Origin: Arthrobacter sp. TMP15
GTDB lineage: Bacteria; Actinomycetota; Actinomycetes; Actinomycetales; Micrococcaceae
DNA length: 64,000 nucleotides
Assembly: GCF_039529835.1 (NCBI RefSeq)
Contig: NZ_CP154262.1
Span: forward strand, 2,976,001 to 3,040,000
Direction: 5' to 3'
The first letter of the stretch is position 1; every line of letters begins with the position of its first letter. A program made the position numbers and the translations under genes. Below are positions 32,785 to 39,135 of this stretch, piece after piece. Under the pieces are notes generated by a model. The model made no database searches. It saw nothing but the letters and a program-made list of their open reading frames with translations, and was not told where the DNA came from.

Positions 32785-33297
32785 TTAGCTCCGTGCAGCC
32801 TTGGCAACTGCAAAGTACTTATTCGCTTCAGGCAGATAACACAGTCCTACTGCCAAACCGCCCAAAATAATCTGAGCCACAGTTGTCAGCCCCTGAGGCA
32901 TCGTGAACCCGACTAGTTGCGTCAACGTTAGAACCGCCAGCACCCCAGCGGCAACTCTGGCCCAAGTCCGGCCTTTCCGCAGAAAAAATGCAAACAACAC
33001 GTACGCGCTAACAGTTGCAATGCCAGCCAAAACCACTGTTATCACCCCCATGTTTCGGGTGGCTTCCAAACTGGGTACAGCACCGCTCATGGCATCTATC
33101 TGTGCCTGAATCGCCACTAGACGTTCGGGTGAGGCCGCGTACATTACTGCCATCACTGAGGCGATGATCTGAACCGCGGCAGCGGCAAGCAACAATCGGG
33201 CAGCCGTCACTACAAGATGTGGTGCAGCCGGTTTGGACGCCCCAGCACTCTTCTCAATGAATGCACCCAAACCGGGAATTTTCGGAGGATTAGTCAA
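32785..33297 (-). CDS. Four-helix integral membrane protein of unknown function
   Basis: 170 residues from a TTG start with AGGA 6 nt before. The ribosome site overlaps the end of the helicase-nuclease gene, so the two are an operon. Four hydrophobic segments are seen: LLLAAAAVQIIASVMAVMY, MGVITVVLAGIATVSAYVLF, ARVAAGVLAVLTLTQLVGFT and VAQIILGGLAVGLCYL. A short loop holds SPERLVAIQAQIDAMSG. The N terminus is Pro/Gly-rich. No enzymatic motif is present; it resembles generic actinobacterial DUF membrane proteins. Confidence 0.7.
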   Translation of the reverse strand: MTNPPKIPGLGAFIEKSAGASKPAAPHLVVTAARLLLAAAAVQIIASVMAVMYAASPERLVAIQAQIDAMSGAVPSLEATRNMGVITVVLAGIATVSAYVLFAFFLRKGRTWARVAAGVLAVLTLTQLVGFTMPQGLTTVAQIILGGLAVGLCYLPEANKYFAVAKAARS

Positions 33298-33305
33298 TGC
33301 AGTTC

Positions 33306-36300
33306 CTAGCCCCAGTGCGGAGGCTTATTCTCACGCAGCCACGCGTCATGACCGCGTCCGTTGGAGGAGTCACCCCACGTATGATCGGCGTCGCTCGGAG
33401 CTACCTTGGGCAACAACTTGGAGTCTTCTGCTGATTCCGGCGCTGGGTTGTCGCTCGTCTTATCAGCTGCTGTATCTTCAGACCCGCTCACTGTTGGCAC
33501 ACTCTTTTCACTATTTTTTGTATCGTCTACTTTATTTGCACGCACCAGCTCCTCCGCCGCTACGTCAGCTGAAGCTACATTGGTGCGTCGCCGTGAACGA
33601 GACGAATCAACCGTGCCGGTTGTGGGGGAATCAGAGGGTGTGCCAAATAAAGAAGCTAGTTCGGCATCGCCACTGGTCGTGGCCAGGTTCAGGTGCCGGC
33701 CAATCTGATCAGCACAACTTGATGGATCGGTAAATACCTCAATGGTCCACAACGGTACGTAGCGCCAGCCCAAACGTTCCAGCATTTGTGGGCGCAGCCG
33801 GCTCCGCTCACGTACAGTCATGTTCTGGTACTTAGCCGTGCCATCCGATTCAACTGCGACAGGTACCGGAATTTCGTGGTCCTCAAGGCCAAGAAGTTGA
33901 ACGGGGTCCGGGGCCGCCGCCATATCCAGAACACCGTCGTAGTGATGCCACACTCTTGCTCCACGGGCGCGAAGCCTGTCGGCCAGATCCGCCACGAGCG
34001 GGTCCTCGCCTGTGACACGTTCACTATCAAGGGCACGTGTTGCCGGTGTTCCCAGCAACGAATTCCCGGCAAGTTCACGGTCAAGTAGCTCAAAGAAATC
34101 AATGGCACCAAAACTTAGCCGATTCTCATCTAAGTCCTCAGGACGGAAGCACGTGACTATATGTATATGGGTGCGGGCGCGCGTCATAGCCAGGGCGAAT
34201 TTCGCACGACCGTCAGGTTCAGACAAGGGCCCAAAGCCATGCAGCGCACGGCCATGTGGCGTCCGTCCAAAGCCAAGGGAGAAAATAACTCTATCCCTGA
34301 CAAGACCGGCGGCACGGTCAACAGTAACAACGCGGAACGACTCAGCACCCGAGGCAAAGAATTCAGCGAGCAGCGGATGGTTGGCCATTTGAAGCCGGAT
34401 GGCTTGAGCAACTCGAACGGCATGCCGCTCACTGGCTGTGATGATGGCCAACGACTCGCGAGGACGAACCCTGGCGTGTTCAAACACCAAGTCAACAACA
34501 CGGTTAACTTCGGCAACCACTGATTCAACCCCGCCGTCGCCAGCGCCGGGCAAGCCCTTGCCGTCCGGGAGATAGTCAACTGTGATTGCGCGTTCAAGTC
34601 CTGTCACGGCCCGGCCGTCGGGAAGCCGTTCCAACTGTGAATCGTAGAATCCGGTACTGAGCTGACGCACCAAGTCTTCATCAACGGCTCGGTAAGAAAC
34701 TGTCAAACGATGTCGCGAAAGGACCCTGGACAGCGCACCAAACACACTTTCCAACGGATGTTGCTCGGCACTACGGGCCCCCGGAGTTCCGACAGCAACG
34801 CTGAAGCTCTTGGGGCACGCTGTCTGTTCGTCGCCAAAGGCAATGACCTGATCCGCCCGGGCCAGGGCTGGGAGGGCCGATTGCAAAGACGTGGATTCTG
34901 CATCAAGGATGACCACGGCATCGAAACGGTAGTGGGCCGGAATGGCCGAAGACACCACGAGTGGGCTCAGGGCAAAAACGGGTGCCAGATTACGTAACAG
35001 GTCAGGTGTCTGGGTGCTCAGTCCGGCAAGGGAGACCCTCCCATCCTTTAGCACATTGCGCAGCATTTCACCCTGCCGGTTGCGACCGGCAAGCATCGCC
35101 TTCCACTGCTTGGCCAGGCGCCAACGGATCCTGCCGGGACCGGAAGCAACATGCGTTTGGTCAGCCAAGCGGAACTCAGCCTCCAAGCGGCGCAGATTTT
35201 CGCCGTCGGACATGGCAAGGTACTCATCCCCGCTAATCATGGCTTCCAACGCCGACTGCCACCACGCAAGTTCAAGCTCTGAACTGGTCTGCTCAGACGG
35301 CACCTCACGGCGGGCCAGGTCATCAAGTAGTTCGCCAAGACCTTGTTCCCGCATACCCTCAAGCAGAAGCGTGCGCTCAGGCAGCGTCTCCAGTGATTCC
35401 CGAGAAGCCACCAGCGCTTCCAAACGGCCAACGAGCTCCCGCGCATTGAAATTCAGCAGGTCCCCGCCATCGACCGTACGGTCCAAAACAGCGCCCAGAG
35501 CCACCAACTTCTCGCGCAAGCTCTTGTAAGTGCGGCTCAACTCAGCCAGCCCCGAGGGCACTGTGGGGTGACGCTTGCTAGTTGCAGCCTCCGCCCACAG
35601 CATGCTTTGTTCGTTGACAAGCATCAAGGATGCGTGGAGATCTGCGATATGCACACCGGGACGGACTAAATCTTTAGCGTTGCGACGGAACCGTGCACGC
35701 TGCAAGGCAGGCATATCGATGCCACGCTCCCGGCGCCAAGCAGCGGTAGCCGTGGCAGCGATCATTTCATCCGTTGACCAGTCAAAAATATCGGCGTTGA
35801 ACTTATCCAGGCTTTCCCGAATCGCGACCAGCATGTCCAGCTGCCGACCCCACTGGGCAAAAGAACTACCCTGCCGAATTTGGCCAAATTCAGCCACCTC
35901 CCGCATCTTCACGGCAAAGCCGGGCACCTGATCGTACAGTTGCTCAGCCAGCGAATAAGCCGACTCGGTTTCCTTGCGTGTCACCATTCGGGCGCCATGC
36001 CATGCACTACTGACGGCAACCTGGCTAAACGCACCGAGCTCAGCGGTCCGTCGCAGACGCCCAGTGAGCTCCTTGCGATCACGGATGCTATCCAAGACGC
36101 TGCGTTTGAGGCGCACTGTTGTGGATGGCGCGGGGTGGATCGAGGTCAGTTCGGCCAATGACTGCATAGCTTGGTAAGGCGAGCATCCCCATCGTTCGCG
36201 CACATTGTGCAGGCTGGCTACATGATCAACCAGTTGGTGGCGATGATCGACGAGAGTTTCATGCAAGCTGTCCAAGGTGGGTTCAACAGCTTTTTCATTT

Positions 36301-37433
36301 CGGGTGATGGCCCGGATCAACTGCGACTTGATTTGCTGGGGCCCCGTCTGTGCGCTGAGCTGCAACAGAAGCGAGTCAAGATCGTGATTGCTGAGAATCT
36401 GAGCAAATTCATTTAACGTCCCGCGACGTTCACCCACCACCAGAACGCTTTTGCCGTCATGGACTAGTTGGGCGACGGCATTGATTGCTGTCTGTGTCTG
36501 TCCGGTCCCTGGAGGGGTCGAAACAAGGACTGACTCGCCACTGCGAACCATATCCAGGACGTATTGTTGCTGTGGATCAGCGTCCAGGACCAACAGTTCA
36601 TCTTCAGGGTGGCGATCATCCAGCGGAGCAAAGCGTTCAAAGTCGGGCTCGAGCTCAACGGGTAGAACGTCATCGCCGCTATGACTCTGGAGCAACTCAA
36701 GCAGTTCGCTACCGGCCATCAGTGCTGGGTCGTTCAAATTATCTGCCAGGAATGCGAAGGTGGAAACCACCAGTTCGTGTTCCACAACTGCCCCGTTGAT
36801 GGGGGCCAGTAGTGTACGCACGCGATCCAGGACGGGGGCCGGATCGAAGCGTGCCGTGCTGTATGCCAGCCGCCCTAAAGCTGCGGTATCAAGGTGGATG
36901 TTTGCCTTCTGAGCCAAGTGTTTCGCCAGTGCGGGGTTCACCTGTGCCTGCTCCATTAGCTGGAGTTCATAGTCATCTTGACCAGGGCGGACGGTCAGTG
37001 CGACGGCGGCGAGCAGGACAGGTGCGCAGACGTCACCGCTGTTTTCACCACCGACAACAGACCAGCGCGCCATACCGGCACCCAAATATCCGACGTCGAT
37101 TCCGCGATCGGTGCTCAGCTCAAAGATCTTCGCGCGAAGGGCAGCGGCAGCCTTCTTTGCGGCCGCATAATGTTCGGGTTCGCGAATCAAGGTGGAGAGC
37201 CGGGTTTTACGGCCGGCCAGAAGCTGGGCCAGGCCAGACGGGTGGGCGTGTGTGAGACCAATGCTGCCGTGCTCGGTTTTTACGAAGGCAAGGGCTGTAT
37301 CCGCGCCTGAATAAGAATCCAATCCAGCAAGCCAGGTTTGGAGTTCCAATGAACTCTCATTGGGGCCTGCAACATCGGACACGGGTGCCTTCTTCTCTGC
37401 ACTTGAGCGAAACGGTCTTGACCATACTGACAT
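33306..37433 (-). CDS. Giant helicase-like ATPase fused to a PD-(D/E)XK (MTES_1575-type) nuclease, ATPase motifs altered
   Basis: 1375 residues. Residues 1-290 are an unassigned N-terminal region. The superfamily 1 helicase core starts with TPPGTGQTQTAINAV (306-320): the Walker A Lys is Gln312. A long helical insert follows (350-800). The Walker B region is VILDAES (842-848), where DEA(S/H) is usual. Motif III (IAFGDEQ), an SYRA motif (913-916) and FGPLSEPDGRAKFALAMTRAR (1067-1087) remain. The nuclease (1145-1250) has D1170 in GVLDMA and E1195/D1197 in VAVESDG, then LRPQMLERLGWRYVPLW, all typical of REase_MTES_1575. A disordered acidic tail ends DAWLRENKPPHWG. It is downstream of guaA on the same strand. 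Confidence 0.82.
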   Translation of the reverse strand: MSVWSRPFRSSAEKKAPVSDVAGPNESSLELQTWLAGLDSYSGADTALAFVKTEHGSIGLTHAHPSGLAQLLAGRKTRLSTLIREPEHYAAAKKAAAALRAKIFELSTDRGIDVGYLGAGMARWSVVGGENSGDVCAPVLLAAVALTVRPGQDDYELQLMEQAQVNPALAKHLAQKANIHLDTAALGRLAYSTARFDPAPVLDRVRTLLAPINGAVVEHELVVSTFAFLADNLNDPALMAGSELLELLQSHSGDDVLPVELEPDFERFAPLDDRHPEDELLVLDADPQQQYVLDMVRSGESVLVSTPPGTGQTQTAINAVAQLVHDGKSVLVVGERRGTLNEFAQILSNHDLDSLLLQLSAQTGPQQIKSQLIRAITRNEKAVEPTLDSLHETLVDHRHQLVDHVASLHNVRERWGCSPYQAMQSLAELTSIHPAPSTTVRLKRSVLDSIRDRKELTGRLRRTAELGAFSQVAVSSAWHGARMVTRKETESAYSLAEQLYDQVPGFAVKMREVAEFGQIRQGSSFAQWGRQLDMLVAIRESLDKFNADIFDWSTDEMIAATATAAWRRERGIDMPALQRARFRRNAKDLVRPGVHIADLHASLMLVNEQSMLWAEAATSKRHPTVPSGLAELSRTYKSLREKLVALGAVLDRTVDGGDLLNFNARELVGRLEALVASRESLETLPERTLLLEGMREQGLGELLDDLARREVPSEQTSSELELAWWQSALEAMISGDEYLAMSDGENLRRLEAEFRLADQTHVASGPGRIRWRLAKQWKAMLAGRNRQGEMLRNVLKDGRVSLAGLSTQTPDLLRNLAPVFALSPLVVSSAIPAHYRFDAVVILDAESTSLQSALPALARADQVIAFGDEQTACPKSFSVAVGTPGARSAEQHPLESVFGALSRVLSRHRLTVSYRAVDEDLVRQLSTGFYDSQLERLPDGRAVTGLERAITVDYLPDGKGLPGAGDGGVESVVAEVNRVVDLVFEHARVRPRESLAIITASERHAVRVAQAIRLQMANHPLLAEFFASGAESFRVVTVDRAAGLVRDRVIFSLGFGRTPHGRALHGFGPLSEPDGRAKFALAMTRARTHIHIVTCFRPEDLDENRLSFGAIDFFELLDRELAGNSLLGTPATRALDSERVTGEDPLVADLADRLRARGARVWHHYDGVLDMAAAPDPVQLLGLEDHEIPVPVAVESDGTAKYQNMTVRERSRLRPQMLERLGWRYVPLWTIEVFTDPSSCADQIGRHLNLATTSGDAELASLFGTPSDSPTTGTVDSSRSRRRTNVASADVAAEELVRANKVDDTKNSEKSVPTVSGSEDTAADKTSDNPAPESAEDSKLLPKVAPSDADHTWGDSSNGRGHDAWLRENKPPHWG

Positions 37434-37545: not shown

Positions 37546-39135
37546 CTACTCCCACTCAATAGTTCCCGGTGGTTTGGAGGTGACATCCAGAACCACGCGG
37601 TTTACCCCATCCACTTCATTAGTGATCCGGTTGGAAATTTTTGCCAGCAAGTCGTACGGCAGGCGTGACCAATCCGCGGTCATAGCGTCTTCTGAGGACA
37701 CCGGGCGCAACACGATAGGGTGACCGTAGGTGCGCCCATCTCCCATCACACCAACGCTGCGGACATCGGCAAGCAGCACCACAGGCATCTGCCACACTTC
37801 ATTGTCCAAGCCAGCTGCCGTGAGCTCGGCTCGGGCAATGGCGTCCGCGTTTCGGAGCAGTTCAAGACGTTCGCCGGTAATTTCGCCCACGATGCGAATA
37901 CCCAGGCCGGGACCGGGGAACGGCTGGCGGCCCACAATCTCAGGTGGCAGACCCAACTCGGCACCAACCGCACGTACCTCGTCCTTGAACAAGGCCCGCA
38001 GCGGCTCAACAAGTTCAAAGCGTAGATCTTCGGGTAGTCCGCCTACGTTGTGGTGGCTCTTGATGTTGGCTGCGCCTTCACCACCGCCAGACTCAACAAC
38101 GTCCGGGTACAAGGTTCCTTGAACCAAGAACTTGATCTCTTCACCTTCCAAGGCAGCCTCAGCCATGATGGCCCGCTCCGCCTCTTCGAAGGCGCGAATG
38201 AACTCGCGACCAATGATCTTCCGCTTTGTTTCAGGATCAGAGACGCCAGCGAGGGCGTTCAGGAACCGGTCCTGCTCGTTGGCTACGTAGAGTTTGGCTC
38301 CGGTTGAGGCAACAAAGTCCAACTCAACTTGCTCAGCTTCACCTTGACGAAGCAGGCCGTGGTTGACGAACACGCAGGTCAACTGATCGCCAACTGCACG
38401 CTGCACCAAGGCAGCGGCCACTGCTGAGTCAACGCCGCCGGAGAGTCCACACAACACTTTGGCGTCGCCGATCTGCTCGCGGATGCGGTCAATCTGCTCG
38501 TCCAAGATGCTGGTGGCGGTCCAGTTCTTCTCAAGTTTGGCACCATTGAACAAGAAATTTTCCAACACCTGTTGGCCAAATTCGGAGTGCTTGACCTCGG
38601 GGTGCCATTGCACGCCAAAGAGGCACTTTTCCTCATTGGCGAAGGCGGCAACAGGTGCGCCGGGAGAAGATGCCAGAACATCAAAGCCTGCCGGAGCCTC
38701 ATGGACGCTATCCCCGTGGCTCATCCAAGTGGTTTGTTCCGCCCCTGTTGAGCTAAGGATGGAGCGGCTTTCACCCAAGAGTTGTACTTGGGTTGATCCG
38801 TATTCGCGTTGACCGGTCTGGGCTACGGTGCCGCCCAAAGCGGCCGCCATGGCTTGGAAGCCGTAGCAAATGCCGAGTACCGGGATACCAGCTTCAAAAA
38901 GGTCGACACCAATGCTGGGTGCGCCTTCGGCGTAGACACTAGAGGGTCCACCGGAAAGGATAATGGCAGCTGGGTTTTTGGCAAGCAACTGCGCGGTTGT
39001 ATAGGTATGTGGCACGATTTCCGAGTACACGTTTGCCTCACGCACACGGCGCGCAATCAACTGGGCGTACTGGGCACCGTAGTCCACAACCAGGACGGGC
39101 TTCTGGGAAGTCTGAGGCGTAGCGGGATTAGTCAC
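37546..39135 (-). CDS. guaA: GMP synthase (glutamine-hydrolysing)
   Basis: 529 residues from a GTG. The class I amidotransferase half has nucleophile Cys90 in [10 protein letters not shown] and the His/Glu pair in VQWHPEV. The ATP pyrophosphatase half has [12 protein letters not shown]. The GMP synthase C-terminal dimerisation domain holds [13 protein letters not shown] and ends with [13 protein letters not shown]. It converts XMP to GMP with glutamine and ATP, completing the guanine branch started by guaB at 45-47 kb. No riboswitch-like structure was seen upstream. Confidence 0.96.

Follow-up and report, generated by a model that had tools for sequence, protein, structure and literature searches.

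Relation to described systems

The described proteins closest to the gene treated here are two kinds of phage-defence helicase-nuclease, ProA/PDC-S37 and Hhe. The gene occupies positions 33306 to 37433, on the reverse strand, of a 64,000-nucleotide stretch of the genome of Arthrobacter sp. TMP15 (contig NZ_CP154262.1, positions 2,976,001 to 3,040,000; "the window" below), and encodes a protein of 1375 amino acids (aa). The superfamily is shared, as the product matches NCBIfam model NF058533 and PADLOC model PDLC05009 over aa 619-1286 and 617-1267, but membership is not: the ProA score is 327.3 bits (E 2e-97 for the whole protein) against a cut-off of 1500, and the Hhe score (NCBIfam NF042953) is 147.3 bits against 2000. 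The window protein is also shorter than ProA (1375 aa versus 1903 model positions, the best stretch ending at model position 1731), and it differs in occupying a shared core locus and in having lost its catalytic motifs. The loss of motifs likewise separates it from Hhe, with which it has the DUF4011-type helicase-nuclease superfamily in common. Among the literature matches listed there was nothing on this protein family and none for PDC-S37/ProA.

More distant comparisons come from helicase folds that do, or do not, turn over ATP. Upf1 and IGHMBP2 (SMUBP-2) are active superfamily 1B (SF1B) ATPases and are not known to have the nuclease domain or the long insertion described below; Schlafen-11 (SLFN11) is eukaryotic and its nuclease domain is unrelated. 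The helicase folds of RecC and of Schlafen proteins serve as clamps or platforms without ATP turnover. For PriA of Deinococcus radiodurans, Walker A and B motifs degraded throughout the phylum, absence of ATPase and unwinding activity, and retained DNA binding are reported (PMC4504706). This helicase resembles the window protein in the decay of both Walker motifs, and differs from it in having a known role, in replication restart. PriA belongs to another helicase superfamily.

We favour, with a probability of roughly 55%, a reading in which the window gene encodes a vertically inherited pseudohelicase that would serve as a platform for nucleic acids without needing ATP.

Loss of the catalytic residues

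The gene and its parts, all on the reverse strand, are as follows.

33306..37433, reverse strand: pseudohelicase gene, 1375 aa, with SF1B Upf1-like core, DUF4011-type N-terminus and MTES_1575-type nuclease domain
36579..37346, reverse strand: N-terminal region, aa 30-285; contains DLTxAHPSGLAQLLAGRxTRLS, a motif that is widespread; G111 and G120 invariant
36489..36509, reverse strand: former Walker A, GTGQTQT, aa 309-315; Q312 is 36498-36500
35034..36233, reverse strand: long, mostly helical insertion, aa 401-800
34893..34907, reverse strand: former motif II, LDAES, aa 843-847
34104..34718, reverse strand: RecA2 domain, aa 906-1110 (limits estimated), with degraded motif V and motif VI TRAR at 34173-34184
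33669..34016, reverse strand: MTES_1575-type nuclease domain, aa 1140-1255, with D1170, E1195 and D1197
33309..33668, reverse strand: C-terminal tail, aa 1256-1375, under low constraint

Pfam matches of the protein (MTES_1575, PF18741; AAA_11; DUF4011) all lie below threshold, and the predicted model has the two-RecA SF1B fold with an Upf1/IGHMBP2-like core, as does that of an orthologue without any P-loop. The motifs of an active SF1B helicase are largely gone from this fold. The P-loop reads TPPGTGQTQT, so that the GK[ST] signature fails; an earlier note on this DNA had reported Gln312 in the place of the Walker A lysine, and the codon at 36500-36498 confirms it. Motif II reads RFDAVVILDAES, and its ungapped alignment with the canonical RFDVVIFDEAS puts Leu843 at the Walker B aspartate and Asp844 at the catalytic glutamate, again failing the DE signature; the same note had the letters LDAES right but placed them one residue too far along, at 844-848. 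Motif V, a change that had been overlooked, is AAGLVRD versus QGDERD in motif-bearing orthologues and has lost its QGDE. The arginines of motif VI persist, R1085 and R1087 being present in 111 of 112 loci from Micrococcaceae with a gap in the other; the TRAR previously assigned to the C-terminus is present and is motif VI (aa 1084-1087) of RecA2. It is very unlikely that ATP is hydrolysed in the way usual for SF1 helicases; the note had stated that most of these fail at it when the Walker A lysine is lacking. The annotation that its domain matches would give the protein, helicase or AAA ATPase, is very probably wrong for most of the order.

Purifying selection in Micrococcaceae

The 112 loci comprise 80 named loci, 22 from genomes of the genus and 10 from other genomes of the family, with genomes possibly duplicated between sets; as the 80 are the best of 509 confirmed places, that set leans to close relatives. 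Column 312 is glutamine in 110 of them (the remaining two read GTDDIRT and GTEPLRT), D844 is found in all 112 and L843 in 111. The glutamine codon is CAG in 100 and CAA in 9 of the 111 loci that matched a pattern. A sequencing error at 36498-36500 is ruled out by this recurrence of glutamine, and normal motifs, whose presence in close relatives the note had named as refuting its reading, were not found in any of these 112 loci.

Ratios of nonsynonymous to synonymous substitution rates (dN/dS), calculated for the genus and near relatives, are low. The whole-gene value is 0.161 among 22 genus sequences (92 of 231 pairs, with whole-gene dS of 0.1-1.2), and the values by stretch are 0.031 for aa 303-320 and 0.040 for aa 836-852 (short stretches, and so rough values), 0.082 for RecA2, 0.090 for the nuclease domain and 0.334 for the tail. 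In a set of 13 loci the gene has 0.119, versus 0.072 for guaA, 0.068 for the galU-type gene (12 loci), 0.122 for DUF3817 and 0.192 for SURF1. The gene is an intact single frame in 22 of 23 genus genomes. Catalytic residues lost, predicted fold kept and purifying selection are what is expected of a pseudohelicase, and the proposal of a conserved variant class rather than decay, for which an alignment of homologues with dN/dS had been suggested as the check, has held up.

Distribution across the order and beyond

Families other than Micrococcaceae (f1) are referred to by codes (f2-f45), and "the order" is that of the window genome. The search of the order covered 149 sampled genomes, of which 146 match at E<=1e-10 and 138 reach 1e-50, the threshold that we took as the sign of orthology; paralogues reached about 3e-41, and matches were not checked one by one. 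Motifs were read in 90 of the 149 (f10, f12, f16 and f18 have no row), and only eight of these keep the Walker A lysine. A 0.8-Mb genome that is 99% complete (G075) has a degenerate copy of 1205 aa (L133) adjoining mscL.

A broader alignment of 127 rows, the window plus 126, has extra members of the genus and takes 16 of its rows from beyond the order. It omits L001 (identical with the window), the paralogues L002, L003 and L027-L031, the fragments L025 and L026, the partial L102 and the duplicate L117; the nuclease is truncated in row L095. At column 312 it has Q in 30 rows, V in 19, R in 19, A in 16, G in 14, K in 9, T in 8, P in 4, S in 3, L in 2, and D, N and H in one each. The lysine rows are from f5 (2 of 2), f17 (6 of 7) and f45 (1 of 1, outside the order), so that within the order, outside Micrococcaceae, normal motifs occur in two families. 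The one f17 member without lysine, L134 (APGTGVTQV, ILEAS), has lost it independently in a family that is mostly motif-bearing. All 14 rows read from f38 have arginine. The P-loop is scrambled in f3, f4, f8, f9, f11, f13 and f20 (for example PVGSDVAGT and ASGRNGVSS), where the protein is still kept; homology of column 312 is unreliable in these families, as is that of column 1170 in f2 and f7 with their scrambled nuclease strand, the letters there being descriptive and the alignments within scrambled segments approximate.

Outside the order the gene is sparse. Matches were obtained in 40 of 197 genomes of the class at 1e-10, several of them through paralogues, and in 18 of 149 genomes of the phylum at 1e-30, again in part through paralogues. 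GPPGTGKSQT, FDEASQ and QGDERD are all present in L259-L262, four orthologues of full length that belong to other classes. A divergent phylum match, L265, which keeps K and DEA and has AIGVDG in its nuclease, was excluded from the orthologue count, and G419, split in two frames, stands outside the motif counts.

Joint losses on trees

Trees were computed with motif columns excluded and nine paralogues as outgroup (quick LG+G4 runs, support from Shimodaira-Hasegawa-like approximate likelihood-ratio tests, SH-aLRT, several long branches), and mostly recovered the families as groups. Both K/not-K and DEA/not-DEA need a minimum of three changes, and the two states agree in 73 of 73 rows, or 78 of 78 when phylum members are added. 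Rooted on the K-bearing outgroup, the losses fall on f25/f38 (not firmly one group in the 78-row tree), on L134, and on the base of a clade of 49 rows to which the window belongs. Judged from these trees, the Walker A lysine and DEA were lost together at least three times. A single origin is not favoured, as the trees need at least three changes. Loss followed by regain has an equal change count, but would require several residues to be regained jointly.

Paralogous DUF4011 helicases of the same and related genomes served as a control, and 16 of 16 keep GPPGTGKS and FD...DEAS; they include the 1844-aa copy of the window genome (L239), which comes from the same species as L254. Paralogues of this type are matched by a profile of the N-terminal region (aa 30-285), and none is matched by a profile of the insertion (aa 430-690), in which W478, A560, R579, L603 and R709 are invariant in both the 26-row and the 112-row sets.

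Chromosomal neighbourhood

Neighbours in the window were named by Pfam. The two genes flanking the pseudohelicase gene are the following.

37546..39135, reverse strand: guaA (GMP synthase), the upstream neighbour in Micrococcaceae
32785..33297, reverse strand: downstream gene whose 170-aa product looks membrane-like by eye, starting 8 nt past the pseudohelicase stop

The adjacency to guaA pointed out in the earlier note is a feature of Micrococcaceae, with 80 of 80 named loci and 29 of 31 f1 loci, and does not extend to other families (0 of 95 loci). There, mscL (PF01741) is the usual neighbour within 1-2 kb flanks. It is nearby in the majority of loci from f5 (2/2), f17 (7/7), f19 (9/9), f13 (5/6), f8 (7/10), f6 (6/8) and f4 (2/3), and in half or fewer from f38 (6/14), f3 (4/10), f15 (2/5) and f7 (1/2); in flanks of that length it was not found in f2 (1 locus), f9 (1), f11 (6), f14 (3), f20 (6), f25 (1) or f45 (1). 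Regions of 20 kb show it in f2 as well, and not in f9, f11, f14, f20 or f45. Among the named f1 loci mscL was found in none of 80.

A block on the 3' side, with genes for an RcpC/CpaB-like protein, a Zn_ribbon_8 protein (FmdB type) and a nucleotidyl transferase (galU type), is shared by 13-17 of 22 regions that were compared, and in f1 this block and a 5-formyltetrahydrofolate (5-FTHF) ligase gene are present in 77-79 of 80 named loci. Motif-bearing and degenerate genes thus have their surroundings in common, an argument for orthology and for vertical descent.

The 170-aa gene had been put forward as a coupled membrane partner. It occurs in 9 of 80 named loci and in 15 of 31 f1 loci, all 15 within the genus (15 of 21 genus rows), is absent from the short flanks of 95 loci of other families and has no NCBIfam match. 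As every locus read that has it belongs to the genus, it is ruled out as a general partner.

The nuclease domain

PF18741 scores 31.3 bits (E 2.2e-07), below the Pfam gathering threshold of 38.2. The D...E-x-D residues of MTES_1575 nucleases (D1170, E1195 and D1197) remain in the window protein, as had been observed before, and nuclease activity of this protein is possible. They are not invariant in its relatives. All nine lysine-bearing rows have D1170 and D1197, column 1195 being Glu in eight and Asp in one, while the 71 lysine-less order rows outside f1 have D1170 in 12, E1195 in 20, both in five and D1197 in 70. Among the 112 Micrococcaceae loci, E1195 is present in 106 and column 1170 has Asp in 93, Asn in 15 and another letter or a gap in four. 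The 15 loci with Asn belong to Arthrobacter and Pseudarthrobacter (L165, L169, L171, L172, L191, L194, L197, L200, L207, L211, L212, L213, L216, L217 and L218).

Since only five of the 71 rows keep both D1170 and E1195, cutting is, on the evidence of these residues, not the activity for which the gene is retained throughout the order. An active nuclease as the conserved output, as previously proposed, is not upheld, the Asn loci of Micrococcaceae speaking against it as well. Loss of E1195 by itself is weak evidence of nuclease death and no proof of it, because three motif-intact paralogues (L247, L251 and L253) also lack this Glu.

A proposed motorless platform and its alternatives

The platform reading starts from an SF1B helicase-nuclease of the ProA/Hhe superfamily, residing in the neighbourhood common to most families read. 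Walker A lysine and the Asp-Glu of motif II were lost jointly in the ancestor of most of the order, with two or more further losses elsewhere. Nearly all sampled genomes of the order nevertheless retain the protein, which is under purifying selection (in the genus) and has its helicase fold predicted intact. Its two RecA domains and long helical insertion could then form a nucleic-acid clamp or platform that works without ATP turnover and may recruit or protect other factors of repair or of RNA. The nuclease attached to it may still be able to cut in Micrococcaceae.

Several points weigh against this. Motor-residue loss and vertical retention are observed, whereas nucleic-acid binding and partners we infer. 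The near-universality covers the intact-motif families f5 and f17 too, and therefore retention is not tied to motor loss. Three of the 149 order genomes have no match and eight match more weakly than 1e-50, and in G003, one of the 23 genus genomes, the gene is broken into three frames (L025, L026), so that essentiality cannot be claimed. Finally, ATP may still be bound without hydrolysis, many lineages having kept G309 and the outline of the P-loop.

A related but more tentative possibility is that a helicase-nuclease of phage-defence type was domesticated as a core gene, after which most of the order shut down the motor, and afterwards the nuclease, and kept the body as a structural, RecC-like subunit of an undescribed complex for genome or RNA maintenance. 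The distribution, sparse outside the order and in nearly every sampled genome inside it, is consistent with this, and the two motor-bearing families would then show the older state.

We consider it unlikely that the protein is a nucleotide or DNA sensor, the model of the earlier note, in which the altered pocket binds nucleotide without hydrolysis and gates an active MTES_1575 nuclease. Micrococcaceae do keep the P-loop outline GTGQTQT and the motif VI arginine, no other stretch measured is as constrained as the two segments of the pocket, and the three acidic residues are present in the window; but other families retain the protein with a wholly scrambled P-loop, and the nuclease residues are not consistently kept, as described above.

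Continued phage defence, with a dispensable motor, is improbable: ProA (327 bits) and PDC-S37/Hhe are indeed the best NCBIfam/PADLOC relatives, but scores fall far below the ProA and Hhe cut-offs, and near-universality in the order, a common neighbourhood and housekeeping neighbours are unlike mobile defence genes.

Even less probable is a cryptic ATPase in which substitute residues carry hydrolysis, as continues in the with-no-lysine kinases. The persisting P-loop outline and motif VI arginines of Micrococcaceae would suit it, but Walker A Lys, Walker B Asp, catalytic Glu and the QGDE of motif V have changed jointly, and the residues differ from family to family.

Ordinary decay of an unneeded gene, to which the split copy in G003 and the fast-evolving tail might point, is contradicted by near-universal presence, dN/dS of 0.12-0.16, motif conservation, single open frames and an intact predicted fold, and is hardly credible.

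A motor-dead protein of about 1200-1700 aa in nearly every sampled genome of the order, including one of 0.8 Mb, implies an unassigned core function. Because the intact-motif orthologues of f5 and f17 occupy the same neighbourhood, they form matched natural pairs with which the role of a motorless helicase fold can be tested.

Further observations

The split copy in G003 is either a pseudogene or an assembly error. PriA of the window genome (L255, G000:C1 at about 1985004-1985300, PF17764 match) lacks, by eye, Walker A/GKT and DEEH, its letters being HGWGPRSWHHQ and WDDGDELH, and is a second apparent dead helicase in this genome. The 1844-aa DUF4011 helicase-nuclease of the window genome (L239:1098-6629; G000:C1, 848000-855500) is motif-intact and lies near ProA/PDC-S37, at 1130.3 and 1165 bits, its ProA score still being below the 1500 cut-off. 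In the scan of named loci the N-terminal query was 100% identical to a locus of Arthrobacter sp. H35-MC1. Two records titled Sporosarcina beigongshangi and Acidobacteria metagenome-assembled genome (MAG) (L146 and L176) carry Micrococcaceae-like copies, at 83% and 57% over the query, and are probably mislabelled or contaminated.

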